From Halorussus halophilus (lineage in GTDB: Archaea; Halobacteriota; Halobacteria; Halobacteriales; Haladaptataceae), in NCBI RefSeq assembly GCF_008831545.1, contig NZ_CP044523.1, positions 2,852,001 through 2,916,000 on the forward strand: a DNA stretch of 64,000 nt, in the 5' to 3' direction. Each line of letters begins with the position of its first letter. Position 1 is the stretch's first letter. The translations under genes and the position numbers were made by a program. The notes under the pieces were generated by a model. It was not told where the DNA came from and made no database searches. It saw only the letters and a list, made by a program, of their open reading frames with translations. Positions 30,493-64,000 of this stretch are shown here, piece after piece.

Positions 30493-30801
30493 TTAGAAGG
30501 TGACGTTGTTAGTCAGCAGAATCGTCCACGTGACGAACCACAGCGAGAACGTCATGAAGACGACGTAGAGATAGTCCTTCACCGAGAAGTCGTTTACGTC
30601 GATTCCGAGCCCCTGTAACAGCGGCATCTGAAGCAGAACGAACGCGCCCACGATACCCAAGCCGAGTTGGTCCTTCGCCGTCATCCCGAGGACTGACGAG
30701 GACGCAACTGCCGCGGCCACGCCAGCGAGCGTGGAGACCGCCGTCACCGTAATCCCGCGAAGGTGCGAGGAGCGTCGTTCTGATACCTGTTCGGTAGCCA
30801 T
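30493..30801 (-). CDS. Small EMC6-like membrane protein
   Basis: A 102-aa protein with three hydrophobic segments (TAVSTLAGVAAAVASSSVLG, LGLGIVGAFVLLQMPLLQG, YLYVVFMTFSLWFVTWTILL). The length, three-helix layout and position next to RLI match what I recall as EMC6-like proteins of haloarchaea; EMC6 is the core membrane-insertase subunit related to Get/Oxa proteins. The identification is tentative, since the sequence itself shows no exclusive motif. Coupling to a ribosome-recycling factor would be logical for a co-translational insertase. ATG 30801 is preferred (M-A-T-E-Q); ATG 30810 is also in frame. Confidence 0.72.
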   Translation of the reverse strand: MATEQVSERRSSHLRGITVTAVSTLAGVAAAVASSSVLGMTAKDQLGLGIVGAFVLLQMPLLQGLGIDVNDFSVKDYLYVVFMTFSLWFVTWTILLTNNVTF

Positions 30802-30840
30802 ACGCGTCACTCGGGGACCCTAGCAGAAAAATGCCCCGCA

Positions 30841-31310
30841 ACCTTTTGCTGCGGGGTGGGCGCGTCGCGCCCACCCGCTGGCAAAACGTCGATGAAAAGC
30901 CGTCCTCACCCTCTCCGGCAGGCCAACGGCCTGCCTCCGAGGGATTCGTCGCCCGCGCTCGCTCAACGAGGCGCGCTTTGCGAACCTCGATTCGCTCGCG
31001 GTACGACTGCTGGTACTCGACCGCAGGGGGAAGTGTCGCCTGCTGGGATTGGTTCCTGTGTCGCCTGTCGAAACATTCCTCGTCTCGACTGCCGAAACTA
31101 TCCGCTGTGTCACTCGGTGAATCTTGTGCGGTTAGACACCGCGCGCTACCGCGAACTGAGGCGGCGCGCTCCGCGCGCTGCCGAGCGAGCGCGTCCGAGG
31201 AACCGTCGAAGCAGGCCGCTCTGCGGCCTGCGGAGGCGGTGACGACGTGATTTTCATCGACGTTTTGCCAGCGGGTGGTCGCCGTCGGCGACCACCCCGC
31301 AGGAAAAGGT
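30841..31310. repeat. Structured repeat family A, two divergent units (A1-left and A1-right)
   Basis: The 546-base gap between the EMC6-like and HTH genes holds no gene but two copies of one unit pointing outward. A1-right (+, about 31160-31310): hairpin 31160-31182, the box GAGCGAGCGCGTCCGAGGAA, hairpin GCAGGCCGC/GCGGCCTGC (31211-31231, loop TCT), GGTGACGACGTG, the box TTTTCATCGACGTTTTGCCA, then hairpin 31274-31296 (loop GTC). A1-left is the same order on the minus strand (about 31000-30841), with stems GGCAGGCC/GGCCTGCC (30917-30935) and GGTGGGCGC/GCGCCCACC (30855-30875). TTTTCATCGACGTTTTGCCA is identical in both arms (20 of 20); the stems are not. A third unit lies at 57.36-57.57 kb. Confidence 0.85.
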
Positions 31311-31316
31311 CGTGGG

Positions 31317-31347: not shown

Positions 31348-31632
31348 ATGATGGTGTCTCAGTCCGAGCGTGAGGAACTAGACGACCTCCCACCGAGCGC
31401 GAAACTCGTCTTCAAGGTCCTCGAATATCAAGGCTCGCTCACCCAGAAACAGATCGTCGAGGAGTCGATGCTGTCGGCTCGAACCGTCCGCTACGCCCTC
31501 GAACGCCTCGAAGAACTCGGCGTCGTCGAGGAAGACGTCTACTTCGCGGACGCACGTCAGAACCTCTACGAAATCGACGCGCCTCTCGAAACGGAAGCTG
31601 AGTGTGCGGACCCGCAGAAGTGCGCCGAGTGA
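31348..31632 (+). CDS. Small winged-helix (MarR/ArsR-like) DNA-binding protein
   Basis: A 94-aa protein that is little more than one winged helix-turn-helix: SAKLVFKVLEYQGSLTQKQI, then EESMLSARTVRYALERLEEL as helix-turn-recognition helix, and GVVEEDVYFADARQNLYEID as the wing. A C-terminal C-x5-C pair (ECADPQKCAE) is suggestive of a metal or redox site. Likely a transcription regulator; target unknown. ATG 31348 or ATG 31351 is the start. The 3' end faces the TrmB gene across 80 bases. Confidence 0.85.
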   Translation: MMVSQSEREELDDLPPSAKLVFKVLEYQGSLTQKQIVEESMLSARTVRYALERLEELGVVEEDVYFADARQNLYEIDAPLETEAECADPQKCAE

Positions 31633-45931: not shown

Positions 45932-47140
45932 ATGCCCTCCAGACGGACGTTTCTCGCTACCTTCGGCGTGAGCGCCAGTAGTGTCGCGCTCGCGGGGTGC
46001 AACGCCGCTACAGAAATCACCGCGGACGACCCGCCGAAACCGGGCGTAGACGAAATACCCGACCCGGACAACCACCTCGCCGGCGCGAACGGCGAGTGGT
46101 CGAGTTTCGGCTGTAACGCCGCAAACACCCGCGCAGTGTGGGACGGCAAGGCACCCGTCGATGGCGTCGAAGAACGCTGGCGAGTCGAAGTGCCGCAGTT
46201 GACGAATCAGGCACCGATAGTCGCAGGGGGCCGCGTCTACCAGTCGATTCGGTACGAACTCGAAGTGTACGACGCCAAGGACGGGAGCGAACTGTGGACG
46301 AAAGACGAGACGAGTACGACGCCGTTGGTGCGTGAGGGCACGGTCTATCTCGGCTTCGGCAATACGCTGCGCGCCCTCGACGCCGAGACTGGCGAGCCGG
46401 AGTGGGAGACGGAGTTCACGGAACAGGATTTCGTTCGGACGCCCACGATGTACTCGGGCGACTGGCTCTACGTGCCTGCGGACGAGACGATGCACCGCGT
46501 CGATGTGGAAACGGGCGAAGTCGATTGGTCGCGACGACTGTTCGGAGAACTGCTCGGTTCGCCCGCGGTTTACGCGGGCCACTACCTCGCCGTCGCTTCC
46601 CAAGCCGGGAAGTTGTATCTCATCGACTTCGAGGGGACCGGCCACGGGGAGTGGAATCTGCCGTCTCGACCGGACGTTCCGACGACCGCGGGTAGGGAGA
46701 ACGTCTACGTGAGTTGCTTCGACGGCACGACGTGGGGTATCTCGTTCGGACAGGCACCCCACCGCGATGTCGCGTTGAAGGCTGAAATCCCCGGCACAAA
46801 CGGCGGACTCGCAGTCAAGGAACACCTCTATGCGGCCGGGTCCGACGGGTTGCAGGCGCTCGATACTGATACCGGCGAGCAAGTGTGGCAACAGGACATC
46901 GGAGATTGGTCGGGGACCGCTCCCGCTATCGGCCGCGACACGCTGTTCGTGGGTGGCGACAAGTTGTACGCCTTCGACCCGACGCCGAAGGGTCTCGACG
47001 CCGGTGGTAGTAGCCCGGCGAAGCGATTCGAGAAGTCGTTCCACGGGCGAGTGGGTCCGGGACCAGTGTTGGATGACGGCGTGCTATACGTGATTGCCCA
47101 GACCGGCGAGTCGTCGTTTCATCTGCTCGCGCTGGAGTAA
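45932..47140 (+). CDS. Tat-exported PQQ-type beta-propeller lipoprotein
   Basis: A 402-aa protein. M-P-S-R-R-T-F-L-A is the twin-arginine signal, with the lipobox A-L-A-G-C near residue 20. Repeated propeller blades follow: GGRVYQSIRYELEVYDAKDG, VYLGFGNTLRALDAETGEPE, DWLYVPADETMHRVDVETGE, KLYAFDPTPKG. Related in fold to the 24452 protein but shorter, without the PKD domain and with a lipid anchor instead. Probably an outer-face scaffold or BamB-like protein; enzyme function is unproved. Starts at ATG 45932 with a TATA box at 27 bases. Confidence 0.88.
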   Translation: MPSRRTFLATFGVSASSVALAGCNAATEITADDPPKPGVDEIPDPDNHLAGANGEWSSFGCNAANTRAVWDGKAPVDGVEERWRVEVPQLTNQAPIVAGGRVYQSIRYELEVYDAKDGSELWTKDETSTTPLVREGTVYLGFGNTLRALDAETGEPEWETEFTEQDFVRTPTMYSGDWLYVPADETMHRVDVETGEVDWSRRLFGELLGSPAVYAGHYLAVASQAGKLYLIDFEGTGHGEWNLPSRPDVPTTAGRENVYVSCFDGTTWGISFGQAPHRDVALKAEIPGTNGGLAVKEHLYAAGSDGLQALDTDTGEQVWQQDIGDWSGTAPAIGRDTLFVGGDKLYAFDPTPKGLDAGGSSPAKRFEKSFHGRVGPGPVLDDGVLYVIAQTGESSFHLLALE

Positions 47141-47273
47141 ATGGGAAGAGCGAGGGATGAAGGTGAGCTAGTAACCTGGATTACTGCCAGCGACGTTCGA
47201 GACGACGCTATTTCTGCGAAGACGTTAGTGCTAGCTACTCCCGATACCGATGAGAGACCGCACCGCTCCGCCA

Positions 47274-47560
47274 CCGCACCGCGAGGGCCACACACCTCCC
47301 GGCAACCACCTTTTTTCTCGTCGGGTGGCAACGGTGCGCTCCACGCACCTGCCACCACTCCGAGAAAAATCTGGACCAAAAAAGCGATGCGAGAACTCAG
47401 CGCGTCTCACGCGCTGAGTTCTCGAATCTCCTGATGCTGGTGCGACTCCCGCACCGCGAGGGCCACACACCTCCCCAACCGACTGGGTCGCTTCGCTCCC
47501 TCGTCCCTCGCGCGAACGGTCGCACCACCGAAGGGGTGCGACCGCACGCGCCAGTTGCCC
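47274..47560 (-). repeat. Structured repeat family B, unit B1
   Basis: The 666-base gap between the propeller lipoprotein and the zinc-finger gene holds no gene but this element, read on the minus strand. Shared boxes with unit B2 (62745-62942) are CCACCTTTTTTCTCGTCGGG (47307-47326), AAAATCTGGACCAAAAAA (47365-47382) and the GCGAG-x-GCCACACACCTCCC box (47455-47475), all in plus orientation here. Between them are hairpins with other sequence than in B2: 47324-47356 and a perfect 16-bp stem at 47390-47405/47409-47424 with a three-base loop. The 27-bp stretch with GCCACACACCTCCC is also present a second time at 47274-47300. The flanks 47141-47273 and 47561-47806 show nothing clear. Confidence 0.85.
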
Positions 47561-47806: not shown

Positions 47807-47986
47807 ATGGCGACCGCACCAACCGGAGACGACGACCTCTTCGACGAGTTCCTGTCCGACCGCGGCCACGAAACCGAAACGGTAGGCTGGCAGCAGGAAT
47901 ACAACAAGAAGCAGTGTCCGGAGTGCAGCGGCCTTCACGATACGTCTGCGAGTGAATGCACAGTGTGTGGTTGGCGACCGGAATAG
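47807..47986 (+). CDS. HVO_0416 family zinc finger protein
   Basis: A 59-aa protein with acidic N-terminus (DDDLFDEFLSDRGHETETVG, then W-Q-Q-E-Y-N-K-K) and one zinc ribbon, QCPECSGLHDTSASECTVCG followed by W-R-P-E. The C-x2-C-x11-C-x2-C-G-W pattern and the preceding D-E-F-L-x-D-R-G-H match the haloarchaeal HVO_0416 zinc-finger family. Micro-protein, probably a small regulator; function unproved. TATA box at leaderless distance. Confidence 0.87.
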   Translation: MATAPTGDDDLFDEFLSDRGHETETVGWQQEYNKKQCPECSGLHDTSASECTVCGWRPE

Positions 47987-55087: not shown

Positions 55088-55768
55088 TCAAGCGAGCGCG
55101 TCCGGGGCCGAAAGATAGTCAGCGAGCCACCAACCAGCGACGCCCGAGACGGCACCGAACAACCCGAAGACGACCGGCAGGACGACGCCGCTTCCGGCGA
55201 CGAGGGCGTCGAAGGCAGTCAGCGCGTCGAGTCGGACCACGTTGTACGCGACGAACAACACACAGAGAACACCGCCGAGTCCGCAGGCCAACAGTCCCTG
55301 TCTGAGTCCGTCAAGTGCGTCGTCCGCGGCGCGATAGCCGACGACGACGCCGACAGTCAACACGCCGAGAGCCGTGAGTGCCGCGGCGCGATAGCCGACG
55401 ACGACGCCGACAGTCAACACGCCGAGAGCCGTGAGTGCCGCGGCGCGATAGCCGACGACGACGCCGACAGTCAACACGCCGAGAGCCGTGAGTGCCACGC
55501 CGTCGTAGCGGAGCGGCCTCGCGACTACGTGGACCGCCGCGACTCGAACGAACAGTGCGCCGGAACCGAGCGCGACGACGAAGCGGTCGATTTCGGAACT
55601 GGAACCGAACGTACCGACGCCTTCGACGGCGACACCGACGACGCCAGCACCCAGCACGCCAGCGCCAGCAGTGACGAGTGCCGGTTCGGGACCCGGACTG
55701 GCGGTGGATGTGGCCACCGCCGTCGCTCCGACGACGAGTAACCCTGCCAACAGCGCGAAACGTCGCAT
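55088..55768 (-). CDS. Hypothetical membrane protein with triplicated helix unit
   Basis: A 226-aa protein with an N-terminal hydrophobic segment (LLAGLLVVGATAVATS), further Gly/Val-rich helices, and three exact copies of a 19-residue unit, ALTALGVLTVGVVVGYRAA, at about residues 92-148. The C-terminal part (LRQGLLACGLGGVLCVLFVA, then GVVLPVVFGLFGAVSGVAGW) resembles the same region of the next gene upstream (55814-56191), so these two are paralogues in tandem. The triplication is perfect at DNA level (55325-55495). No known family; membrane topology depends on the copy number. Confidence 0.78.
   Translation of the reverse strand: MRRFALLAGLLVVGATAVATSTASPGPEPALVTAGAGVLGAGVVGVAVEGVGTFGSSSEIDRFVVALGSGALFVRVAAVHVVARPLRYDGVALTALGVLTVGVVVGYRAAALTALGVLTVGVVVGYRAAALTALGVLTVGVVVGYRAADDALDGLRQGLLACGLGGVLCVLFVAYNVVRLDALTAFDALVAGSGVVLPVVFGLFGAVSGVAGWWLADYLSAPDALA
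55325..55495. repeat. Perfect 57-bp tandem repeat, three copies
   Basis: Units at 55325-55381, 55382-55438 and 55439-55495 are identical over all 57 positions as read. The unit length is 19 codons, so the frame is kept. Identical copies mean recent expansion or ongoing copy-number change. Confidence 0.93.
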
Positions 55769-57357: not shown

Positions 57358-57565
57358 GGCGAGATTCCTTCGGAATCTCGCCGAGCGAGCGCGTCCGAGG
57401 AACCCGCAGAAGCGCGCGCTCTGCGCGCGCTGGCGCGGGTGACGACGTGTCTTCCTGAGCGAACGCGAAGGAAGGCTCGGAAGACGCGGTTTGTCTTCCG
57501 GTGATTTTCATCAACGTTTTGCCAGCGAGGTCGTGTGGAAGCCGTTGGCTTCCACCGGCCGAGCG
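57358..57565 (+). repeat. Structured repeat family A, unit A2
   Basis: In the 325-base gap between the DUF7533-like and NifU-like genes. Order as in A1-right: hairpin GCGAGATTCC/GGAATCTCGC (57359-57381, loop TTC), the box GAGCGAGCGCGTCCGAGGAA, hairpin AGCGCGCGC/GCGCGCGCT (57411-57431, loop TCT), GGTGACGACGTG, then an insert of about 55 bases with its own hairpin (57478-57500), the box ATTTTCATCAACGTTTTGCC and hairpin GTGGAAGCC/GGCTTCCAC (57535-57555, loop GTT), ending CAGCAAAA. The linkers are almost identical to A1-right; the hairpin stems are different sequences but fully paired. 57256-57357 shows nothing else. Confidence 0.85.
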
Positions 57566-57580
57566 CAGCAAAACGTTGTC

Positions 57581-62319: not shown

Positions 62320-62703
62320 CTACTCCTCGTCGTCGTCCTTCGCTTCTTCGCCGCTCTCCACGTCGATTCGGTACACCTCTTCGTCTTCGACTTCCCCACT
62401 GCCTCGCCCGTGCGACCCGTGTTCGCCGAGCAACTTCGAGCGCAGGTCGTCGGTGAACGACTGCACTTGGTCGCGGAACGTCTTCATCTCGTCTTGGAAC
62501 TCCTCGACGGTGCGCTCGACGTAGTGAACCTTCGTCGTGGGAATCCGCCGTACGGTGTCCCGACCCTGTTCGTCCTCGCCGGTCTTGACCATCCAGTGGT
62601 CCTGGAAGTAGGCGACGTGCTCGTTCTGGACCGTCTTCTCGACGGTGCCCTCGTCCGGGTCTTCGTAGACGATAGTCGCCTCTCCGAGATCTTCTTCGAC
62701 CAT
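62320..62703 (-). CDS. Hypothetical acidic protein
   Basis: A 127-aa soluble protein, M-V-E-E-D-L-G-E-A-T-I-V-Y-E-D-P. The first 70 residues are beta-rich (EKTVQNEHVAYFQDHWMVKT, then RIPTTKVHYVERTVEEFQDE), the next are a helix (MKTFRDQVQSFTDDLRSKLL), and the tail is acidic (SGEEAKDDDEE). Looks like a conserved haloarchaeal protein of no known function. ATG 62703; the frame extends through repeat B2 to 62820 and that part should not be included. Confidence 0.75.
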   Translation of the reverse strand: MVEEDLGEATIVYEDPDEGTVEKTVQNEHVAYFQDHWMVKTGEDEQGRDTVRRIPTTKVHYVERTVEEFQDEMKTFRDQVQSFTDDLRSKLLGEHGSHGRGSGEVEDEEVYRIDVESGEEAKDDDEE

Positions 62704-62744: not shown

Positions 62745-62942
62745 CCACCTTTTTTCTCGTCGGGTGCCAGCGCGCGACTCCGCCGCGCTTCGGCACCATT
62801 CCTCGGAAAATCTGGACCAAAAAACCGACGCTCGAAATCCGCGCGCGTAGCGCACGGATTTCTTACGTCTCCAACAAGCTGTTGCGAGAGCCACACACCT
62901 CCCACCCGATTCGCTCACATTCGTTCGCTCATCCCTCGCGCG
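62745..62942 (-). repeat. Structured repeat family B, unit B2
   Basis: Read on the minus strand. In the 320-base gap between the hypothetical gene and the geranylgeranyl reductase. Plus-strand boxes: CCACCTTTTTTCTCGTCGGG (62745-62764), AAAATCTGGACCAAAAAA (62807-62824), GCGAGAGCCACACACCTCCC (62884-62903) and a terminal CATCCCTCGCGCG near 62930-62942. Hairpins between the boxes: 62763-62797 (GGTGCC/GGCACC with inner AGCGCG/CGCGCT), and GAAATCCG... at 62834-62862, whose one mismatch is C-A on the plus strand but G-U on the minus strand. The 62943-63023 rest is GC-rich with further short hairpins. Confidence 0.85.
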
Positions 62943-63023: not shown

Positions 63024-64000
63024 TCACGACCGCGAAAGCAGTTTCGAGAGATGCTCTTTCGAGAAGAACGAGGTCGGCTTGTCCATGTGGACGCCGATTT
63101 CGCCCGAGAACGCCGACAGCCCCGCTTTCTGCACTGGCTCGGGCAACGAGTAGGCGCGGCGAATCCAGTGGCCGAGTCGAATTTCCGTACTCAAATCGTC
63201 GCGCCACGCCGACTCGTAGTTCTGTAGCGAGTCAGGGTCGTCGGGGTCGATTTCCCGAACTGCGTGGTCGGCGGCGGTCATGCCGTACAGAATCCCGCCA
63301 CCGGTGAAGGGCTTAGTCTGGGCCGCCGCGTCCCCGATTAGGAACCCGCGCCAACTGCTGACGCGCGGTGCTGGCCCGACCGGAATCATCCCGGCACAGA
63401 ACTCGCTGGTCTCGATGTCGTAGTTCTGGGTGAACTCCTCGAACAGTTCCTTTGCGGTCGGCTCGGACCCCGGCGGTGCCGCCAGTCCGTACTCGACTCC
63501 GGCGTCGCTTCGCGGGATTCGCCACGCGAAGAATTTGGGGGCAGTGAGATGCACGTCAACGTAGTCGCCAGGGTCGTCCTCCTCGCTGAAACCCAGTACG
63601 CCTTGCAGTTTCTCACCCGGTTCCGGCAGGCCGAGTTCGGTCCGAACCCGCGAGACGGGCCCGTCACAGCCAGCGACCATCTTCGCTCGGTACGTCTCGG
63701 TGCCGTCAGGCGTATTCGCCGTTACTTCGACGTACTCGCGGTGTTCTTCGACCGACGAGACGCTGTGGTCTTCTCGGAGGTCTGCACCCGCCTCTCTTGC
63801 GGCCGCCGCGAGACGGACGTCTAAACCGACTCTGTCGATGACGTTCGAGACGACCTCTTGCTTATAAAAGGGGTAGTCGTCACTTCGCGGGCCACCGACG
63901 TGGAAGCGCGCGCCGTACACCTCGTTCTGCAACAACTCCTCGCGTGCTCCGTCGGGCGTGAACTCCCAGATGTCGGTACTGACGTGACCCGAGCACGCGA
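63024..64000 (-). CDS. Geranylgeranyl reductase family protein (5' end outside window)
   Basis: More than 325 codons of a flavoprotein; the true start lies beyond 64000 because the frame stays open to the right edge (H-V-S-T-D-I-W-E-F-T-P-D-G-A). The visible part has VVSNVIDRVGLDVRLAAAAR, the VAGCDGPVSRVRTELGLPEP motif (D-G-x2-S-x-V-R), LIGDAAAQTKPFTGGGILYG (G-D-A-A, FAD binding) and a C-terminal lipid-facing part (IRLGHWIRRAYSLPEPVQKA). These place it in the geranylgeranyl reductase/DGGGPL reductase family, which saturates the isoprenoid chains of archaeal lipids or quinones. The dinucleotide loop is in the part that is cut off. Confidence 0.9.
   Translation of the reverse strand, partial: ACSGHVSTDIWEFTPDGAREELLQNEVYGARFHVGGPRSDDYPFYKQEVVSNVIDRVGLDVRLAAAAREAGADLREDHSVSSVEEHREYVEVTANTPDGTETYRAKMVAGCDGPVSRVRTELGLPEPGEKLQGVLGFSEEDDPGDYVDVHLTAPKFFAWRIPRSDAGVEYGLAAPPGSEPTAKELFEEFTQNYDIETSEFCAGMIPVGPAPRVSSWRGFLIGDAAAQTKPFTGGGILYGMTAADHAVREIDPDDPDSLQNYESAWRDDLSTEIRLGHWIRRAYSLPEPVQKAGLSAFSGEIGVHMDKPTSFFSKEHLSKLLSRS

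Follow-up and report, generated by a model that had tools for sequence, protein, structure and literature searches.

In bacteria, the hairpin of an intrinsic terminator precedes its T-run, and the REP/BIME elements of enterobacteria are intergenic palindromic repeats that lie behind stop codons, occur in many copies, and undergo concerted evolution. How neighboring transcription units are separated in compact archaeal genomes is poorly understood. In Haloferax volcanii, T5C terminates 95% of transcripts in vivo, and some Haloferax 3' ends have hairpins nearby (PMC7237163); in archaeal termination that depends on aCPSF1/FttA, U-tracts act with aCPSF1 (PMC8716108). Among repeats, the SMR copies of Haloquadratum walsbyi are commonly >95% identical and are tied to other mobile elements (PMC3119063). 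Here we analyze two units, B1 and B2, of a structured repeat in a 64,000-nucleotide stretch of Halorussus halophilus DNA (the window; C1:2852001-2916000 of the 4.45 Mb genome). Like archaeal T-tract terminators, this repeat has, in intergenic DNA, T5-6 and then C immediately past stop codons; unlike them, it has opposed T-tracts in one covarying palindrome, fixed boxes, and tens of copies, and it also lies upstream of promoters. The searched text of PMC7237163 contains no description of such a module. As argued below, B1 and B2 probably belong to a haloarchaeal module that acts as a bidirectional T-tract terminator/insulator and whose copies spread or are rewritten within genomes.

Results

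B1 and B2 share boxes and paired hairpins

On the + strand of B1 (core at 47306-47383), CCACC-T6-C is followed by a spacer, hairpin 1, and A5-TCTGGACC-A6; in B2 (core at 62745-62824, + strand), CCACC-T6-C is followed by hairpin 1 and A4-TCTGGACC-A6. Exact copies of box 1 stand at 47306-47325 and 62745-62764 (shuffle expectation of 0.01) and of box 2 at 47366-47383 and 62807-62824 (shuffle expectation of 0.00), and box 3 lies at 47456-47475 in B1 and 62884-62903 in B2. Hairpin 1 is present in both units, at 47324-47356 (stem GGTGGCA-GGTGCG / CGCACC-TGCCACC) and 62763-62797, and so is hairpin 2, at 47390-47424 and at 62834-62862 or, in a wider form, 62828-62870 (GACGC-GAAATCC...GGATTTC-CGTC). 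The B1 hairpin 2 stem, CGAGAACTCAGCGCGT/ACGCGCTGAGTTCTCG, pairs at 16 of 16 positions around a CTC loop, exactly as the initial annotation had it, and the boxes and both hairpins that it listed for the two units were all located where it placed them. Its claim of equal box spacing holds for boxes 1 and 2 (40 versus 42 nt) but fails for boxes 2 and 3 (72 versus 59 nt). It overlooked that boxes 1 and 2 are partly complementary, CCA...T6 pairing with A6...TGG as an outer stem; the B1 core folds as a quasi-palindrome, with the outer stem CCA/TGG plus pairing between T-run and A-run. RNA-fold z-scores were -10.4 and -8.8 for the two B1 strands and -4.9 and -4.6 for those of B2, and none of 200 shuffles gave an equal fold for either unit.

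Read on the + strand, the T6 tract of B1 (47311-47316) is followed by C, a candidate terminator signal of the T5C type, and transcripts from the + gene 45968-47140 run into it. On the - strand, T6 (47378-47383) and T5 (47365-47369) tracts stand around GGTCCAGA (47365-47383), and hairpin 2 precedes the T6 tract, a stem position like that of an intrinsic terminator. The start codon of the - gene 62320-62703 is 46 nt away from the B2 core, which lies on its upstream side. An alternative pairing of the linear TCTGGACC box with hairpin 2 (AAATCTGG...CCAGATTT) was discarded, being not kept in B1 and other copies. Directly right of B1, our reading of the sequence alone gives a 59-aa open reading frame (47807-47986, +) with two CxxC motifs (zinc-finger-like, CPECSG...CTVCGW), which our gene calls did not include. 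Elsewhere in the window, at 55324-55512, 57-bp tandem repeats (75-nt copies, 57-bp spacing) lie inside a called gene region.

The core recurs throughout the haloarchaeal order

Exact central boxes occur at least 15 times on the chromosome. A search of the H. halophilus genome with covariance model R1, built from an alignment of 17 copies (A1), returned ~47 separate strong places (~40-50 copies), two of them on a second replicon, and the other matches listed were largely weaker, overlapping ones on the opposite strand; model R2, from a mixed alignment (A2), retained only 5 pairs and was set aside. Pairing in the B alignment covered 95.3% of cells as compared to 86.1% after shuffling, and 44 cells were changed on both sides as compared to 10.5, values reached in none of 500 shuffles. 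When the partner was shifted by one column, pairing fell to ~42%. The initial annotation had described a structured repeat of linear boxes whose hairpins differ in sequence yet remain paired; the compensating changes, which exceed those of shuffles by far, bear this out, as do the many further copies. Mean core identity among copies of this genome is 0.76.

Model R1 found matches in 45 of 59 relatives, from several families of the order. A pattern that ignores the hairpins, ACCTTTTT-N26..56-AAAAA-N8-AAAAA, gave 840 matches in 146 genomes, 111 of which were positive, whereas its reversed control gave 3. The core occurs throughout the haloarchaeal order, with matches in Halorussus litoreus, salinisoli, amylolyticus, and ruber, a Haladaptatus, Salinarchaeum laminariae, MAGs, and a plasmid of H. 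caseinilyticus. The window and 10 loci had no Rfam match at the gathering score or at E ≤ 1, no phage match was found, and searches of openly accessible papers for the box, for bidirectional terminators, and for MITEs in haloarchaea yielded no published description of the module.

The T-tracts face inward on both strands

The full unit reads NNACC-T5/6-C-TCGTCGGG - hairpin 1 - CTCCTCG-A5/6-nnTNN-nnn-A5/6-S-hairpin 2. Boxes 1 and 2 make up the outer stem, one arm each, and covary between species, with CC/GG, CG/CG, GG/CC, GC/GC, and GT/AC observed as outer dinucleotide pairs. These dinucleotides are complementary in 56 of 59 distinct copies (shuffles: mean of 26, maximum of 36), so that the T-tract signal faces inward on both strands alike. 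Hairpin 1 stems are nearly pure Watson-Crick, with only 9 G.T and 10 A.C mismatches among 1195 pairs; the scarcity of wobble-type mismatches in either sense fits a need for the stem on both strands or its maintenance at the DNA level. An excess of C.A mismatches in hairpin 2 of the H. halophilus copies (7 cells) appears to be one inherited change. On the - strand, the second T-tract directly follows hairpin 2 (e.g., in copies L085, L089, and L097), whereas no hairpin precedes T6 on the + strand.

The window also holds three A-type units that have the B layout, with AAAACGTCGATGAAAA: ACCTTTTGCTGC-hairpin-GGCAAAACGTCGATGAAAA at 30839-30897 (+), CGACCTTTT...AAAACGTCGATGAAAA in the opposite orientation at 31250-31316 (-), and a core with a compensated outer arm, AACGTTTT...AAAACGTTGATGAAAA, at 57503-57577 (-), which sits between convergent genes (57255+ / 57581-). 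The initial annotation recognized a common design principle, and the core layout is indeed identical, but it treated A and B as separate families. Both have the T-run, hairpin, and A-run-N8-A-run core, and both occupy the same site behind TFS in different Halorussus species; families A and B are thus variants of one core or superfamily. The first two A-type units form a pair in opposite orientation (30839-31316), ~350 bp apart, with complementary 32-nt arms, flanked by a - gene (start codon at 30747) and a + gene (start at 31348). Another H. halophilus copy (L005, C1:1259195-1259283) is a compact A/B hybrid core, CCACCTTTTT-hairpin-AAAAATCTGGACCAAAA, that by inspection of its letters only lies directly 3' of an apparent tRNA 3' end. 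In some B copies of this genome (L013, L019, L034, L048, L050, and L051), hairpin 1 and the central box are separated by an insert of up to ~95 bp that holds several small hairpins (CTCACGGCCGCAGGCCGTCTGCTCGCGGCTTCGCCGC...CCCTCGG).

Box 3 belongs to a second repeat

Box 3 (GCCACACACCTCCC), counted as part of B by the initial annotation, has 149 matches in the H. halophilus genome as compared to 6 for the control, mostly away from any B core, and of 30 places examined, 18 had a GCTAGC motif upstream and 2 had a B core. It is part of a different structured repeat, family C, which is more abundant. Family C runs (GAA)GCTAGCTACTCCCG - GAGAGACCGCACNGCACCGC - GCCACACNCCTCCCCAACCGACT - variable hairpin - CTCATCCCTCGCGCG - hairpin - GCGCGCGCC (149 matches of CCTCCCCAACCGA in this genome; examples are L190, L260, and L264). 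Its inner hairpins also vary in sequence, and it often consists of two inverted halves ~200-450 bp apart (8 of 30 examined). A tandem array of ~33-bp units with GAGAAGCTAGCTGGCTCC between MvaD and nth in another genome (L201, G006) resembles the family C end motif.

In many cases, a B copy is fused with the right part of family C. At B1, a left piece of family C (GCTAGCTACTCCCG ... GAGACCGCACCGC ... GCGAGGGCCACACACCTCCC) spans 47230-47300 (+), with the B1 core within or beside it, and a right piece (CCTCCCCAACCGACT ... TCGTCCCTCGCGCG - hairpin - CGCACGCGCC) spans 47449-47552 (+); the box 3 of B2 (62884-62903, +) is part of a family C tail. The B1 core and hairpin 2 are bracketed by an exact 27-bp direct repeat on the + strand, with copies at 47274-47300 (CCGCACCGCGAGGGCCACACACCTCCC) and 47449-47475, the second of which includes box 3; this repeat puts an extra box 3 copy before box 1. 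With regard to SMR-type ends, inverted covarying arms are present, and the direct repeat brackets B1 only.

Copies lie at gene edges

Placement was scored for 122 copies in three sets, namely the H. halophilus genome, the sister species G013, and other genomes, with relatives' loci being mostly the best match per genome. Genes were called by a codon model trained on the window, and one record carried NCBI annotation. When the left-hand gene is on the + strand, the left T-run lies 3-26 nt after its stop codon in 16/18, 23/24, and 30/42 cases for the three sets, with a mode of 6-8 nt and medians of ~8, 9, and 7 nt. If it is a - gene, the T-run and the start codon are 39-67 nt apart (16/20, 5/7, and 5/9 cases), the T-run mostly being 44-53 nt upstream and abutting BRE/TATA; the H. 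caseinilyticus copy, located with the NCBI annotation, agrees at 45 nt. In the gaps between T-run and start codon, AT content peaks at -23 to -31 and again at -33 to -35, matching the TATA and BRE of leaderless haloarchaeal promoters. C follows the left T-run in 88 of the 122 copies. Within the window, T5 or longer occurs ≤100 nt after 9 of 65 stop codons, versus 2 for the antisense control.

Overall, the core avoids divergent gaps, which make up 11 of 116 gaps with a core and 32 of 84 without (P = 1.5e-6). By set, the counts are 0/31 in G013, 3/48 in other genomes, and 8/37 in H. halophilus, the last not significant (P = 0.09). Spacing on the right-hand side is loose, the right arm lying 7 to 1100 nt from a stop codon with a median well over 100.

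Shared sites carry species-specific hairpins

Downstream of TFS in 18 Halorussus genomes, a T4-6 run lies shortly past the stop codon in most. A full B-like core is present there in H. halophilus, G013, G008, and G017, an A-type core in G011, another variant in G012 and G016, and a bare or decayed run in others. In 18 species, the MvaD promoter is conserved as TTAAAACTCTC or a close variant, with the element beside it in H. halophilus only; upstream of the B2 gene, a conserved block ends in CTGTGGC, and among the Halorussus species examined only H. halophilus has the element. The gains at these two promoters are lineage-specific.

Eight sites, defined by flanking genes and orientation, are common to H. 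halophilus and G013, against ~0.15 expected from a rough estimate over 8000 gene edges. Hairpin 2 similarity is 0.57 at these eight sites and likewise 0.57 at unrelated sites, as compared to 0.71 and 0.66 between copies within one genome; hairpin sequences at the shared sites are species-specific. Sites shared without shared hairpins imply that positions were kept while hairpins were rewritten in concert, or that the same sites were struck repeatedly. Two Y1_Tnp genes, both on contig C3, have no core box within ~1.5 kb, and an association with IS605-type Y1 transposases was rejected on this ground.

Discussion

As a bidirectional terminator/insulator, the module would work as follows. A transcript from the left would meet T6C right behind the stop codon, and one from the right would meet hairpin 2 and then T6-N8-T5/6, while the quasi-palindrome between the T-tracts (outer arms and hairpin 1) would keep both directions alike. 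Behind a stop codon, the module would end the transcript of that gene, as B1 would for the + gene 45968-47140; with a start codon ~45 bp downstream, it would protect a leaderless promoter against antisense transcription and read-through, and B2 would stop transcripts of 63024-63998 (-) ahead of the promoter of 62320-62703 (-). Copies would be gained, swapped, or homogenized within a genome, leaving hairpins species-specific and many sites shared. We infer that the T-tracts terminate transcription and block read-through; conversion or transposition would be the means by which copies spread.

This reading is supported by the placement at stop codons and promoters, the avoidance of divergent gaps, the C after the T-run, the 95% termination published for T5C in Hfx. 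volcanii, the complementary outer dinucleotides, the interchange of A and B behind TFS, and the eight shared sites, and nearly pure Watson-Crick stems are expected if both strands matter. Several observations argue against it. Eight of 37 H. halophilus copies are flanked by divergent promoters, with no gene transcribed toward them, and the right arm is mostly far from stop codons, so that the right-hand gene may gain nothing from a stop in the minus direction. An RNA that ended at the first T-run would never hold both arms, and the covariation would then require read-through RNA, DNA pairing, or template copying. The other Halorussus species examined, which lack the element at the MvaD and B2 promoters, presumably do well.

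The same placement could reflect tolerated or targeted insertion sites, behind the stop codon and upstream of the TBP/TFB footprint, of a selfish mobile palindromic repeat with no host function, akin to the SMR, MITE, and PATE elements of Haloquadratum. Such an element would account for the gains at the two promoters, where the promoter block is conserved in the genus, for B1 lying in or beside another repeat and bracketed by a 27-bp direct repeat, and for hairpin 2 being more alike within a genome than at orthologous sites; divergent gaps, moreover, are not clearly avoided in H. halophilus itself (8/37, P = 0.09). We nevertheless consider it rather unlikely, given the strong avoidance of such gaps in G013 (0/31) and other genomes (3/48), the eight sites in common with G013, the T-run behind TFS that most species keep even where the palindrome is lost, the core identity of only ~76%, and no core ≤1.5 kb from the two Y1 transposases found. 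The initial annotation implied a structured non-coding RNA, which would be made from one strand and be trans-acting or processed. Strong fold z-scores, covariation, and conserved linear boxes would suit such an RNA, which is nonetheless very improbable in view of the lack of a strand-specific wobble excess (9 G.T versus 10 A.C in 1195 hairpin 1 pairs), T-tracts directed inward from both ends, the absence of Rfam matches for the window and 10 loci, and a close tie of the copies to gene edges, no constant promoter belonging to them having been seen. Given the stop-codon and promoter-edge positions, a cis-acting bidirectional terminator is the stronger reading. Neutral palindromes, perfected from quasi-palindromes by template-switch correction with no functional selection, would produce near-perfect Watson-Crick stems, triloops, and fast hairpin turnover at fixed sites; we give this little credence, as it leaves unexplained the conserved linear boxes, T5/6C, the gene-edge positions, and the order-wide conservation of the unpaired A-run-N8-A-run.

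If the favored terminator/insulator reading is true, a two-way terminator fixed at gene edges would make insulation predictable from sequence in hundreds of haloarchaeal genomes and would provide a ready genetic part, and the repeat would offer a natural system for the spread and concerted rewriting of a regulatory palindrome. A bolder extension, which we put forward tentatively and hold to be doubtful, is that these are self-spreading archaeal insulators: palindromic bidirectional terminators that would copy to or overwrite existing T-tract terminators as well as the upstream border of the TBP/TFB footprint, rewiring promoter insulation, with stems renewed in concert in each species.

Among known systems, the module resembles the bidirectional intrinsic and uptake-sequence terminators of bacteria (see also PMC1852404) in that an inverted repeat serves two directions and a dispersed repeat is recruited as a terminator; it differs in order, the + strand having the T-run before the palindrome rather than a hairpin and then a T-run. 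It is like REP/BIME in being an intergenic, multicopy palindrome 3' of stop codons with concerted evolution, and unlike it in that no RAYT-type transposase stands beside copies, the consensus is its own, and the T-tracts are the conserved core. With SMR-A, MITE, and PATE elements of H. walsbyi (PMC3119063), it shares a length of ~80-130 bp, inverted ends, tens of copies, and positions inside other repeats, whereas its copies, at ~76% identity, fall short of that of SMR, have compensated stems, and are tied to gene edges.
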